The translations under genes and the position numbers were made by a program. Of a stretch of DNA of 14,093 bases, positions 7,258 to 14,093 are shown piece by piece. The stretch comes from Candidatus Zhuqueibacterota bacterium. GTDB lineage: Bacteria > SM23-31. Each line of letters starts with the position of its first letter. Position 1 is the first letter of the stretch. The DNA lies in assembly GCA_022562855.1 (NCBI GenBank), contig JADFON010000012.1:1-14093 (forward strand), in the 5' to 3' direction. The notes beneath the pieces were generated by a model. It searched no databases. It worked only from the letters and a program-made list of their open reading frames with translations, and had not been told where the DNA came from.

Positions 7258-10200
7258 TTGCATAGGCATAGCACAACATACAAAAAGGCAGTTCGATATT
7301 TCTTTGCACTATTGTTCATTATTGCATTTCTGCTGCCAACCTATTCGTTCGCCCAACTAGCCCCTATCATTTCGAGGGTTGGAATAACCTTCAAATACCC
7401 CGGTAACACCGTTGTAGAGTTTACTGAAAATAACATCATTTTTTCCGGTTTGGGTGTTGGAATGATACACAACATCTCACTTCCGAAAAATGTCTTGAAT
7501 ATTTCCCGCAGTACCGTACTCGATTCATCCCTTAACAGCTTTGTAATTTCAGAAGAATATCTTGGAAATCAATTTAAGATACCTCTTATCATCGATATAG
7601 AGAGATACACCTTATTATCAAGAAGACAAACTCTCCTAAAATTGTGGGCTCAAACAAAGTGGAGCAATATTGCAACGCCCGGTACGGCTCAAACCGGCAG
7701 CAGAGGGCTGAATATCAGGATACCCGTTCCGATACAAAGCGAGACGTTTAACCGGATAGTCGGAGGCGGTGGGGCAATCGGTCTAACCGTAAATGGAAAT
7801 GTCAGCATAAACGGAAACTTGATCCATACTGACCGAAGCCAGGTCAAGGACGTATTCCGCGGTTCGGATTATACATTCCGGCTTGAGCAAACGCAGAGAT
7901 TTCAGATAACAGGAACTGTCGGAGATAAAATAACAGTTGCAGTCGACCAGGCTTCAGACCGTGATTTTGATCTTCAGAACAATCTACGTCTTCGTTACCA
8001 GGGCGGTGAAGATGAAATCTTCACATCGATCGAGGCGGGTAACATATCGCTGTCCTTGCCCGGAACGCAGTTTATTACATTCAGCGGTCAGAACAATGGC
8101 TTATTTGGATTCAAGACGGTCAACAGGCTTGGACCCCTGGACATAACTTCGATAGCCAGTCTCGAAAGAGGTCAAAAACAGTCTTTGACGATAAGAGGCG
8201 GGGCAAGTGAACAAAAAAGAATTATCAAAGACTATGATTTCCTGAAAGGCGTCTATTTCTTTGTCGACGCCCGGTACCGTGACATATACGGTTTTGACGA
8301 AACGGGTCTGTTCAGGTTTAACCCGAACGATGAAATCGTTGAACTGGAACTTTGGAAATCCGGTCCTAATTATAATACCGACCCCGAGTCAAAGTCAGCC
8401 TGGGCAGTATGGGACCCGGTTGCCTTAACATCTCAGGACACGTTAAACGGCGGTGACAGAAACAACGTCAAAAGGCATTTTAAACGACTCCTTCCGAACC
8501 GGGATTATACGCTCAATAAAGATCTGGGGTATATAATAATGCAACAGCCGGCGCGTAACGAAATTCTTGCCCTGGCATACCGGACGGTGTCCGGCGACAA
8601 TATCGGTGATGTTATACCACCCGATGAACAGATTACACCTGACAATCGCGCGTTTATTTTAAAACTCTTAAGAACCGACAATCCTCAACCCGCCGACCTG
8701 ACATGGACCCTCGAGTGGAAGAATGTCTACCAATTAGCGGGCGGGCAGATCAACCGGGAGGGATTCAGCCTCCAAATAGTCCGCAATAATCAACAGCGGA
8801 GCCCCATCCAGGACGATCAAACGAGTTTTCTCAAAGTATTCGGTCTCGACAGAATAGATGTGAGCGGAAATCCGGGCGATGACGGTATCGTCGATGTCGG
8901 CAACTCTAATATATTTAATTTTGCCCTTGGTCATTTGATCATGCCGGGCAAACGCCCCTTTGCCCCGGAGAATGGAGAAGACCCGTTTGGCGAATTCGGC
9001 AATAAATCTCCTCTTGATCCTTCACTGTATATACCGGAACTCTATGATAATCTTTTTCTCACGATTACCGATCTTAACAAGTTTTCAAAATTTGAATTCG
9101 AAATTTCGGCTTCAAGCCAGTCGCAGACTTTCAATCTCGGGTTTAATATTATTGAAGGAAGCGAGGAAATTTTCCTGGACGGGATAAGAATGTTGAGGGG
9201 AATCGATTACGATATCGATTACGGCTTTGGACAGTTGACTATATTGAAAAATGATGCTTTGGCGCCCGGTAAAACGATCGAGGTAAAATACGAAAGCGGT
9301 GAAATATTTCAACTCGATAAAAAAACCCTGTTCGGAACGAACCTTCGATACGCTATGGGTCCCAATATGTCCTTCGGGGGTTCGGCGTTATTTTTGAGTG
9401 AGCGCATTATCGATACACGCGTTTCAGTCGGTCAGGAACCAAAACAAAACTTTGTCTGGGGATTTAACACAAGTCTGTCTTTTACACCAAGCGCGGTCAC
9501 GAGCATCCTTGACCGTCTTCCGCTCATCAGGACCAACACACCTACGACTTTGAGCTTTCAAGGCGAAATCGCCCAATCCCTTCCGAATCCGAACACACTG
9601 AATAACAATGCGACCAACGACCCGGCGGGTGTAGCGTACTTAGATGATTTTGAAGGAAGTAAACGCGTTAGTTTCCTGGGAATCATGCGGCGTATCTGGA
9701 CGATTTCGAGTGAACCGGTCTATAAGGATCCTTTCAGCGGCGTAACCACAAACCTATCGCACAGTAACCGGGCAAAAATGATGTGGTACAACCCTTATCA
9801 ACAAATTATCATCAGCGAGATCTTTCCGAACAAAGAATTGAACAACAGAACGCAGAACTTAACAAACATATTGACCATAGGTTTCATAGATGACAGCAGG
9901 GGTCCGGTTCCGGATAACCCCTGGGGCGGGATCATGCAGTGGACGGGACAAAGCTATTTCAACCAGACAGAAAGCAAATTTCTGGAAATGTGGGTCAAAG
10001 GCGAAACGGGAGTTATACATATTGATTTCGGTATTATAAGTGAAGACGCCGTTCCAAACGGCGTTCTTGACACCGAGGACGGAATTACTACCGGGTTTTT
10101 GAACAGTGTTTTGGATGATGATGAAGACGTTGGTTTATGGAGCAACTGGAACATTACAAATCCCGCAGACCAATGGGACGACGACTGGTTTTATTCTCAA

Positions 10201-13200
10201 GGCAGTTCAGACTATACAACCATTAACGGAACTAAGAATAACGGCAACATAGAAAATAGCGACGGGAGCCGTTTTCCCGATACGGAGGATATCGACCGTG
10301 ACGGAGCTCTCGATCTCAGAAATGATTACTTCCAGGCAAGTATTAACCTCGGAGACGATTTCGTGTCTGGCAAATACAAAGTCAGCGGACCCAATCAGAA
10401 CGGCTGGAAATTGTACAGGATACCGCTCAGCGACTTTATACCGATAAATAATCCCAACTGGGGTCAGATCGAGTTCACGCGGCTCTGGTTTACAGAAATG
10501 GGTAAAGGGGATCTTGTAAGTATATATACTGTAGACCTTGTCGGAAACTCCTGGAAAGAACTCGGTGTCGCTGAAGACGATTCGCTGGTAAGAAAAGGAG
10601 TCTATTCTCTCGCCGATTCGTCGATCGTTATCGATGTGGTCAATACCGAAGATAACTTCGGAGAATATACAAGTCCTCCGGGAGTTGAGGGGCGTCTCGA
10701 CAGGATCACCAGGGTAAGAGCGCGGGAACAAGCGCTGTCGCTCAAATTCGAGAATCTGCAGGAAGGTCAAAGCGGCGCTGCTCAAAGCGTATTTATAAGA
10801 GACCGGAATGTTATTCACTACCGCAGGCTGAAGCTATTTGTTTATGGCGATCCGGCGATAACGAACCCGGATACATCTTCCCTGGAGTTTTTTATACAAG
10901 TCGGGTTTGATAACAATAATTACTATGAAATCAGGAAAAAAATATATCCCGGTTGGGATGAACGTAACGAAATCGACGTCGACCTTTGGGAGCTGACAAA
11001 ACTCAAAACCGAATTATACGGGGGAAAAAGAGTTATGGAAAACGGTGAGATATGGACCATGATCGGCAATCCGACCTTTCAAAAACTCCGGGTTACAACT
11101 ATCGGAGTAAAAAACCTCGACATTTTTCCCAAATCGGGTTTTATCTGGGTCGATGAATACAGGGTGAGCGAAGTTGACCGTGCGCCGGGTGTAGCGATGC
11201 GGGCATCCATGTCGATGAATCTCGCCGGACTTGGTTCAATATCAGGAAGCGTATCGAGGATAGAAGACGATTTTCACACCTTAAACAGCCAGTTCGGTTC
11301 CGGTCAAAATACGAACAGTTTTTCTTTGAATTTTTCGGGATTTGCAGTGGAAAAAATATTTCCGTTTTTGAATGCCTTTGCAATTCCAATAAGTTATTCT
11401 TTCAGCCGGTCCACAGGAACCCCGAAATATCTCCTGGGAAGCGATGTGCTGTTTTCACCTGATCTTCCCGACGCGGAAAAGGAAGAAAGATCTTCATTTT
11501 CATCAAACATAACCACTTCTTTTTCGAAAAGAGCGACATCATTAAACTGGTTTATCCGCAACACCTTAGAGGCGGTGTCTTTGAACTTTAACCGCCAATT
11601 CACTACTTCCCGGGATGTAAATAATGAAATAAACCGTTCCACCCGGAGCAGCGCCCGGATTACGCATAGACTGTCTTTGAGTCCGAAATATATTGAACCG
11701 TTTAAATTATTGGGCGGTATAAAGCTGCTGAACAGTCTCAGCCAGTTCAAATTCTATTATTTACCGACAAGTTTTAACTCGACAATCTCGGGAAGAGAAT
11801 CTTCTTCAGTGCTCAAATTAAGAAGAAGCGACGAAATAAAACCAAGTCAAAAGATCACCGCATCAAAAAGAATTTCTACCGCTTTCAGACCTATGGAGAA
11901 CCTCACCATTACTGTTACAAGATCGACGGAAAATGATCTGAGCCATTTAAAGGACAAAACCAAAATATTTTCAGAAATGTTCAATGACACCACTGTTACG
12001 AGCACAACCCAGAATATACAGGGAACGTACAATCCCAAAATTCTGGGCTGGTTATCTCCGAATTTATCTTATACCTCGATATATGGTCTCAGGTCAAATC
12101 CACAGTTAAAAAGCGCCGGTAGTTCGGCAAGCTCACAGCGAAATATGAAGGCGGCCTTTTCTGTTTCTTTGAACCAATTGATAAAAAAAATATACGATAA
12201 TTCGGCACAGGAACAAAATCCGGGCAGAAGACCGCCCCCGTCGCGTGCAGGAAGAGTTGTCGTTCCGCCTGATATTCAGATTGAGGAGGAGGAAGAAGAA
12301 CAAGAGCAGGAAGAAGAAACCCGGACAGCCGGCTTAGCATTAAATCCACTTTATTACATAAGTAAGTTTACGGAAAAGCTTGGAACAATCAGCATAAATT
12401 TTACCAGGAATTCAAGCCTCGACAACCGGGGTCTTACCGGCACACCGTCTTACGCGTATCAATTTGGTTTCTCTGAAGACCCGGGTGTAACGCTTATAGA
12501 AAAACTGGGCAAAAATACCGGCGGAAAGACCGATGAATCTACAATCAGGCTTTCTTCATCTCTCAGGGTATTTGAAAAATTAAACCTCTCCCTGACATTT
12601 GACAAGTCTAACAGGGAAAACGACAAGGGTAACAATCCGACCGGAAATACCAGTATGACAATGTTTATTTTTAAGGATATCAGGCTCCCTCTCCCAACGT
12701 ATTCGTTTCAACTGAACAACTTGAATAAAATATCATTTCTTGATAGAGTCACAAACAACATATCGCTGAGACACTCATATTCGGGAAGAAAAAGTTTGGT
12801 GTGGACGGGCAATAAAGACAATCTAAAAAGCACTAAATTCGACTGGGGATTTTCTCCGCTTGCCGGAATAAATATCGCCTGGAAAGGCGGAATAAATTCG
12901 ACTGTCAGTATGACCCGGAAGAATTCACTCACCATCGATAGAACGGGAGCCGAAGCAAAAACAGTGAGCAGCACATTTACCGCTTCGACATCTTATAACC
13001 TCAGTTCCGGTTTCAAGATACCATTCCCGTTCGGACTGTTCGGCGATAAACGTATCGACAACACGGTCAATTTTACAATGGATATCAACAAGACAAGCAG
13101 CGGCACATTCCAAAAGAAACCAAATTCCGATGAGTTTCTACTGAGAAGCAGCCGGTCAAGATTGAGCATCACGCCCAGAATGACCTACACTTTTACTTCA

Positions 13201-13311
13201 AAGGTCACCGGGGGATTTAATTTCAAATACCAGATAAATGAAAACAACCGGAATGGGAAAGATGTTACGACCGACTTCGGACTCAGTGTACGAATCAGGA
13301 TAGCGGGTTGA
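7258..13311 (+). CDS. sprA: SprA/Sov-type outer-membrane protein, type 9 secretion translocon
   Basis: This 2017-residue protein matches the SprA (Sov) family, whose Flavobacterium member is a giant 36-strand outer-membrane barrel that forms the type 9 secretion pore and is needed for gliding. A signal peptide spans about 1-32 (hydrophobic ALLFIIAFLLP, cleavage near SFA/Q). Family-typical blocks are the segment starting EQTQRFQITGTVGDKI at 210 with a following IEAGNISLSLPG, a GLDRIDVSGNPGDDG loop at 530-543, AYLDDFEGSKR at 793-803, and PDTEDIDRDGALDLRNDYF around 1008-1026. The C-terminal 700 residues are Ser/Thr/Asn-rich amphipathic strands ending VRIRIAG. It is shorter than typical Bacteroidota SprA (about 2300-2500). 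A Pro/Arg-rich stretch and an acidic run of E/Q at 1676-1687 form a disordered insert. The start is a TTG only two bases after AAAGG; no ATG exists nearby and a stop lies at 7228-7230, so the start is uncertain. No other T9SS gene is in the window. Confidence 0.88.
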   Translation: MHRHSTTYKKAVRYFFALLFIIAFLLPTYSFAQLAPIISRVGITFKYPGNTVVEFTENNIIFSGLGVGMIHNISLPKNVLNISRSTVLDSSLNSFVISEEYLGNQFKIPLIIDIERYTLLSRRQTLLKLWAQTKWSNIATPGTAQTGSRGLNIRIPVPIQSETFNRIVGGGGAIGLTVNGNVSINGNLIHTDRSQVKDVFRGSDYTFRLEQTQRFQITGTVGDKITVAVDQASDRDFDLQNNLRLRYQGGEDEIFTSIEAGNISLSLPGTQFITFSGQNNGLFGFKTVNRLGPLDITSIASLERGQKQSLTIRGGASEQKRIIKDYDFLKGVYFFVDARYRDIYGFDETGLFRFNPNDEIVELELWKSGPNYNTDPESKSAWAVWDPVALTSQDTLNGGDRNNVKRHFKRLLPNRDYTLNKDLGYIIMQQPARNEILALAYRTVSGDNIGDVIPPDEQITPDNRAFILKLLRTDNPQPADLTWTLEWKNVYQLAGGQINREGFSLQIVRNNQQRSPIQDDQTSFLKVFGLDRIDVSGNPGDDGIVDVGNSNIFNFALGHLIMPGKRPFAPENGEDPFGEFGNKSPLDPSLYIPELYDNLFLTITDLNKFSKFEFEISASSQSQTFNLGFNIIEGSEEIFLDGIRMLRGIDYDIDYGFGQLTILKNDALAPGKTIEVKYESGEIFQLDKKTLFGTNLRYAMGPNMSFGGSALFLSERIIDTRVSVGQEPKQNFVWGFNTSLSFTPSAVTSILDRLPLIRTNTPTTLSFQGEIAQSLPNPNTLNNNATNDPAGVAYLDDFEGSKRVSFLGIMRRIWTISSEPVYKDPFSGVTTNLSHSNRAKMMWYNPYQQIIISEIFPNKELNNRTQNLTNILTIGFIDDSRGPVPDNPWGGIMQWTGQSYFNQTESKFLEMWVKGETGVIHIDFGIISEDAVPNGVLDTEDGITTGFLNSVLDDDEDVGLWSNWNITNPADQWDDDWFYSQGSSDYTTINGTKNNGNIENSDGSRFPDTEDIDRDGALDLRNDYFQASINLGDDFVSGKYKVSGPNQNGWKLYRIPLSDFIPINNPNWGQIEFTRLWFTEMGKGDLVSIYTVDLVGNSWKELGVAEDDSLVRKGVYSLADSSIVIDVVNTEDNFGEYTSPPGVEGRLDRITRVRAREQALSLKFENLQEGQSGAAQSVFIRDRNVIHYRRLKLFVYGDPAITNPDTSSLEFFIQVGFDNNNYYEIRKKIYPGWDERNEIDVDLWELTKLKTELYGGKRVMENGEIWTMIGNPTFQKLRVTTIGVKNLDIFPKSGFIWVDEYRVSEVDRAPGVAMRASMSMNLAGLGSISGSVSRIEDDFHTLNSQFGSGQNTNSFSLNFSGFAVEKIFPFLNAFAIPISYSFSRSTGTPKYLLGSDVLFSPDLPDAEKEERSSFSSNITTSFSKRATSLNWFIRNTLEAVSLNFNRQFTTSRDVNNEINRSTRSSARITHRLSLSPKYIEPFKLLGGIKLLNSLSQFKFYYLPTSFNSTISGRESSSVLKLRRSDEIKPSQKITASKRISTAFRPMENLTITVTRSTENDLSHLKDKTKIFSEMFNDTTVTSTTQNIQGTYNPKILGWLSPNLSYTSIYGLRSNPQLKSAGSSASSQRNMKAAFSVSLNQLIKKIYDNSAQEQNPGRRPPPSRAGRVVVPPDIQIEEEEEEQEQEEETRTAGLALNPLYYISKFTEKLGTISINFTRNSSLDNRGLTGTPSYAYQFGFSEDPGVTLIEKLGKNTGGKTDESTIRLSSSLRVFEKLNLSLTFDKSNRENDKGNNPTGNTSMTMFIFKDIRLPLPTYSFQLNNLNKISFLDRVTNNISLRHSYSGRKSLVWTGNKDNLKSTKFDWGFSPLAGINIAWKGGINSTVSMTRKNSLTIDRTGAEAKTVSSTFTASTSYNLSSGFKIPFPFGLFGDKRIDNTVNFTMDINKTSSGTFQKKPNSDEFLLRSSRSRLSITPRMTYTFTSKVTGGFNFKYQINENNRNGKDVTTDFGLSVRIRIAG

Positions 13312-13314
13312 GCT

Positions 13315-13506
13315 ATGCCTGATATCCGAGCCTGCCGATACCTCGATTGTTACTTTAATAATAACTTCGAAAATACATGCCTTAAAGATTCTGTGACCGT
13401 TAGCGCTACAGGAGAATGTGAATCCAAAATTTATTGTGACGATTATCAGTGCCATGAATGCGATAAATTTGAAGTATGCAAAAAGCAAAAAAAGGAAGAA
13501 TTCTAA
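13315..13506 (+). CDS. Small Cys-rich protein, two four-Cys clusters; C-terminus probably artefactual
   Basis: This 63-codon frame starts three bases after the sprA stop and is likely read from the same transcript. It holds eight Cys at 7, 12, 22, 35, 41, 46, 49 and 55. The first four (C-x4-C-x9-C-x12-C) recall small DUF1540-like metal-binding domains, while CDDYQCHECDKFEVC resembles a second zinc or iron-sulfur knuckle. There is no signal peptide, so it would be cytoplasmic. No family is assigned with certainty. Codon use up to about residue 55 matches the upstream genes, but the last codons lie in the A-rich stretch where the sequence changes to a foreign, low-GC style; the KKQKKEEF tail and TAA stop may therefore not belong to this gene. 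Confidence 0.6.
   Translation: MPDIRACRYLDCYFNNNFENTCLKDSVTVSATGECESKIYCDDYQCHECDKFEVCKKQKKEEF
13473..13500. other. Compositional and coding junction: probable contig chimera breakpoint
   Basis: Upstream sequence is moderate-GC and codes in the style of sprA; downstream sequence is very A/T-rich (15-33% GC in lines I counted) and codes in a different frame for the middle of MnmA. The MnmA frame meets a TGA at 13470-13472, so the usable homologous frame begins abruptly within 13473-13490. The breakpoint falls in the A-rich stretch AAAAAGCAAAAAAAGGAAG, a typical place for false assembly overlap. Horizontal insertion is the alternative. Confidence 0.7.
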
Positions 13507-13973
13507 ATCCTGAAGGAAAAATTATAGGTGAACATGATGGAATTTACTATTACACTATAGGTCAAAGATTGGGACCTAGATATGGATTTGAAATAGAAAA
13601 ATCTAGTTTAGATAAAAAAAATTTAAAAAAATGGTATGTTGCAAGAAAAAATCCAAAGAAGAACGAGATCATCGCAGCTCCAGAAGGGCATGAATTAAAT
13701 TTCAGAAAAGAAATAATCCTTAAAAATTTTTATTTGATCTCAAAAGATAAAAATGAATTTAAAAAATCAAATTTAAAAAATCCTATAAAAGTTCTTTCAA
13801 GAATAAGGCAAGTTGGAGAATTACTCCCAAGTAAAATTATTTACAACAAAAATAAAAAGCAATTTAAAATAATTCTCAATAAACCAATAACTGGAATTTC
13901 AAAAGGACAAGCAATTGTTTTATATCAAGGTAAAGAAGTTCTAGGAGGAGGAGAAATTAGGTTTGAAGATTGA
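13476..13973 (+). CDS. mnmA: tRNA 2-thiouridylase MnmA, C-terminal fragment (5' two-thirds missing)
   Basis: MnmA uses ATP and a persulfide relay to thiolate U34 of Glu, Gln and Lys tRNAs. Only the C-terminal part is present: the hallmark IIGEHDGIYYYTIGQR, then KWYVARKNPKKNEIIAA, the RIRQVGE stretch of the central beta domain and the closing GISKGQAIVLYQGKEVLGGGEI. A full protein has about 350-370 residues; this frame has 165. The catalytic PP-loop domain and both catalytic Cys are absent, and homology starts mid-protein at about KKGRI, so the ATG at 13476 is not a genuine start. Very low GC and Lys/Asn/Ile-rich composition, plus the GPRYGFEI variant after TIGQR, suggest a CPR/Patescibacteria source. 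It is best read as the 3' end of a gene from another genome joined here. Confidence 0.85.
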   Translation: MQKAKKGRILNPEGKIIGEHDGIYYYTIGQRLGPRYGFEIEKSSLDKKNLKKWYVARKNPKKNEIIAAPEGHELNFRKEIILKNFYLISKDKNEFKKSNLKNPIKVLSRIRQVGELLPSKIIYNKNKKQFKIILNKPITGISKGQAIVLYQGKEVLGGGEIRFED

Positions 13974-14013
13974 TGACAATAATATTTAAGAAGTTAGTTC
14001 ATTTAATTTAATA

Positions 14014-14093
14014 ATGGATCCTCAATTTTATCCTAAAAGATTTAATTTGTTAAGTGATGGGCATGCCATTACAAATTTGGCTTATGATACATT
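14014..14093 (+). CDS. Start of an unrecognised low-GC gene, cut by the window edge
   Basis: From an ATG at 14014, 26 codons stay open to the end of the window, beginning MDPQFYPKRFNLLSDGHAI. It lies 40 bases after the mnmA fragment, on the same strand and with the same A/T-rich composition, so it belongs to the putative foreign segment. There is no clear Shine-Dalgarno sequence. The fragment is too short for a family assignment. Confidence 0.35.
   Translation, partial: MDPQFYPKRFNLLSDGHAITNLAYDT

Follow-up and report, generated by a model that had tools for sequence, protein, structure and literature searches.

A bacterial metagenomic contig ending in a DPANN archaeal mnmA fragment, most probably through chimeric assembly

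The last ~600 nt of a bacterial contig were found to be of a different origin from the rest, with the homologies of the two sides breaking at one short common word at about positions 13,480 to 13,503. The window that we analyzed is the entire contig C361 (14,093 nt), belonging to a bacterial metagenome-assembled genome (MAG) that comprises 491 contigs (2.51 Mb in total) and is 79.6% complete. On its left side the DNA is bacterial and on its right side it carries the 3' part of an archaeal mnmA gene. We are highly confident that this contig end is an assembly chimera and not a case of gene transfer, because homology on both sides breaks within the same ~20 nt, the foreign stretch sits at the contig end, and the MAG has an intact mnmA elsewhere.

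The bacterial part contains, from left to right, a 220-amino-acid (aa) open reading frame (ORF), proS, an acyl-CoA dehydrogenase-like gene, a 7TM-HD phosphohydrolase, a ybeY-like gene, sprA/sov, and a 63-aa Cys-rich ORF, the acyl-CoA dehydrogenase and ybeY labels coming from reading of the translations. The last large gene on this side is sprA/sov (7,258 to 13,311, + strand), encoding the outer-membrane translocon of the type IX secretion system (T9SS), with matches to the profiles SprA_N (E value of 4e-30) and TIGR04189 (E value of 2e-233), and its homologues are present in genomes of the same family and the same class. No known structured RNA was detected within the window, and there was no plasmid match for the junction. 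Near the left end of the contig (216 to 434) there is also a MITE-like repeat of about 217 nt with terminal inverted repeats TAACCCGTTGTGCTAAT and TTAGCACAACGGGTTA, of which at least five further full or near-full copies (75 to 96% identity), as well as fragments, were found on other contigs of the MAG.

Immediately before the joint lies the 63-aa Cys-rich ORF (13,315 to 13,506, + strand), whose final codons enter the joint and which has no Pfam match. In a sister genome of the same family (G002), a homologue with 53 to 55% identity is located just 3' of sprA on the same strand, and its alignment extends to the final residues (..CKKQKKEEF versus ..CGKEKKNSF), although the frame of the homologue is longer. 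Since this alignment spans to the end of the ORF, bacterial DNA reaches at least its conserved Cys codon (13,477 to 13,479). It probably continues to ~13,494 to 13,503, and the true 3' end of the ORF has probably been lost. Further homologues were found in two more genomes (G004 and G005), where a second similar Cys-rich unit seems to come after the first, in the same or another frame. This small Cys-rich ORF is kept in several genomes of the class (loci L044, L045, and L046).

The initial annotation had claimed a genome switch at 13,473 to 13,500, with a sharp fall in GC content and a change in codon style, and had proposed tetranucleotide frequencies as a check. Composition and homology confirm the switch, at about 13,480 to 13,503. 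Along the contig, GC content drops from values of 0.43 to 0.45 on the left of the joint to 0.26 over 13,501 to 14,093, close to the values of the archaeal mnmA loci (0.29 to 0.33), and every other stretch of that length (593 nt) has a GC content of at least 0.31. Likewise, the tetranucleotide distance of the contig end (0.71) is the largest, all other stretches being at 0.56 or less, and the GC content at third codon positions (GC3) is 0.13 in the mnmA piece versus 0.45 to 0.49 in most bacterial genes of the contig. The maximum-likelihood GC changepoint falls at 13,346, with a 2-log-likelihood interval (13,336 to 13,487) that covers the start of the joint zone. As this interval is broad, the joint was placed by homology.

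To the right of the joint, the sequence is the 3' portion of mnmA (13,481 to 13,973, + strand), the tRNA-U34 2-thiouridylase gene, from a DPANN archaeon, with matches to the Pfam domains tRNA_Me_trans_M and tRNA_Me_trans_C and to TIGR00420 (positions ~212 to 351). The frame (13,476 to 13,973) covers only MnmA profile positions from ~208 to 351, that is, the C-terminal PRC-barrel (PF20259, E value of 2e-15) and beta-barrel (PF20258, E value of 6e-14) domains. The N-terminal PP-loop with the catalytic cysteines is absent, the profile match beginning at ~208 to 213, and the score (89 to 91 bits) is under the family cutoff of 236.95. The absence of the catalytic N-terminal two-thirds had already been described from the DNA alone, as had the stop directly upstream of the homologous part, which is an in-frame TGA at 13,470 to 13,472. 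This fragment is not a functional gene on the contig. The remaining foreign stretch (13,974 to 14,093, + strand) is also low in GC and runs to the contig end, with a short spacer and a possible ORF start at 14,014; the 26 codons that follow stay open and have no Pfam match, and the stretch had no match within the archaeal neighborhoods.

An intact mnmA native to the MAG lies on a different contig (C68, 5,850 to 6,926). It is only 22% identical to the fragment, so that we rejected a paralogue or duplicate of the bacterial gene. A split mnmA with its other half elsewhere in the MAG was also discarded, since the N-terminal half that the fragment lacks was not found there.

To the level of Nanoarchaeota/Pacearchaeota, sequence comparison assigns the mnmA piece to a DPANN archaeon. 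When 84,980 species genomes of bacteria and archaea were scanned, 20 related loci were retrieved, all of them in DPANN/nanoarchaeal MAGs labeled as Nanoarchaeota, Pacearchaeota, Diapherotrites, or unnamed archaeon. Amino acid identity to archaeal MnmA is about 50 to 72% (50 to 70% for the 20 scan loci, the best, at ~70%, being in Pacearchaeota L002), while bacterial MnmA proteins are only 22 to 34% identical. In the maximum-likelihood tree, the fragment pairs with the L002 protein (support of 88/86) within archaeal rows that form one side of a 100/99 branch, apart from bacterial MnmA, whereas the complete mnmA of the MAG falls with its bacterial sisters. The initial annotation had taken the tail as coming from a CPR bacterium, and low GC content and the presence of an MnmA gene do fit CPR genomes generally. 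However, the scan, in which no CPR was compared by name, gave only archaea, and both the tree and the identities put the fragment within the archaeal rows. We therefore rejected a CPR origin, and a cross-phylum join to such a bacterium has hardly any probability left. The join bridges domains and not bacterial phyla alone, with a bacterium on one side and a DPANN archaeon on the other. Complete bacterial-type MnmA proteins (360 to 492 aa) are widespread in Nanoarchaeota/Pacearchaeota (L002 to L021). According to a passage of one source, archaea are usually described as using NcsA for U34 thiolation (PMC10067955). The occurrence of MnmA in many DPANN genomes, against this usual NcsA, may be the reason why a bacterial source was assumed earlier.

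The joint zone itself (13,481 to 13,503) reads AAAAGCAAAAAAAGGAAGAATTC, an A-rich stretch, as the initial annotation had indicated, and it fits the bacterial ORF, with its Lys-rich tail, as well as the archaeal mnmA (..KxKKGxI..). Among 31 archaeal loci, some of which are one genome present twice, DNA similarity starts at 13,481 in 21; positions 13,482 and 13,486 are the start in four loci each. Upstream from 13,481 the archaeal genes continue in frame (..KINLKKFLQKKIKPKKGKILNP..), where the window has the bacterial ORF instead. Of the joint zone, about 14 nt are backed by the homologies of both sides, with a possible extent of 23 nt. A near-identical donor was found neither in the archaeal order (200 genomes) nor in the phylum (371 genomes). 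As the donor archaeon is absent from the genomes searched (best match of ~72% at the DNA level), the exact common word was deduced from relatives.

The smallest k-mers used by common metagenome assemblers are about the size of this common word (14 to 23 nt). The bacterial genome (3' of sprA) and a co-occurring DPANN archaeon (inside mnmA) would share the A-rich word AAAAGCAAAAAAAGGAAGAATTC or part of it, at which the two genomes would have been joined, either in an assembly step with a short k or in a read that was itself physically chimeric. From this word the contig would have followed the archaeal gene for ~600 nt before ending. Taken at face value, the assembled sequence reads as a recent transfer, in which DPANN DNA (the 3' part of mnmA and more past the contig end) was inserted 3' of sprA in the bacterial chromosome, and DPANN archaea are frequently cell associated with other microbes, which makes such an event conceivable. 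The insert would, however, have to start midgene, inside the common word and with no other trace, interrupt the end of the bacterial ORF, and stop exactly at the contig end. Its GC3 has no sign of adaptation, in the sister genome G002 the only mnmA is the native one, which lies on a separate contig, and a joint within a common A-rich word is what a false join would be expected to produce. We consider a real transfer very improbable, if somewhat less so than a CPR join, and we infer that the two genomes were joined by the assembler or in a chimeric read and not in nature. An assembly chimera was also the earlier interpretation, and this part of it stands, supported by the shared break, the contig end, and the separate mnmA of the MAG, while its CPR source does not, given that only archaeal relatives were found.

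The meaning of this result is one of quality control only. We recommend trimming the last ~600 nt of the contig and counting the mnmA fragment neither as a gene of the bacterium nor as a case of gene transfer. As in the chimeric contigs that short-read metagenome assembly forms between genomes, two organisms meet near a contig end at a short low-complexity word that they share, with a step in composition at the joint, although here they belong to two different domains and the case is known from the assembled sequence alone. Compared with the MnmA of DPANN archaea, the C-terminal ~160 residues are alike at 50 to 72% identity (DNA at ~72% at best), but the contig lacks the catalytic PP-loop portion of the N terminus.
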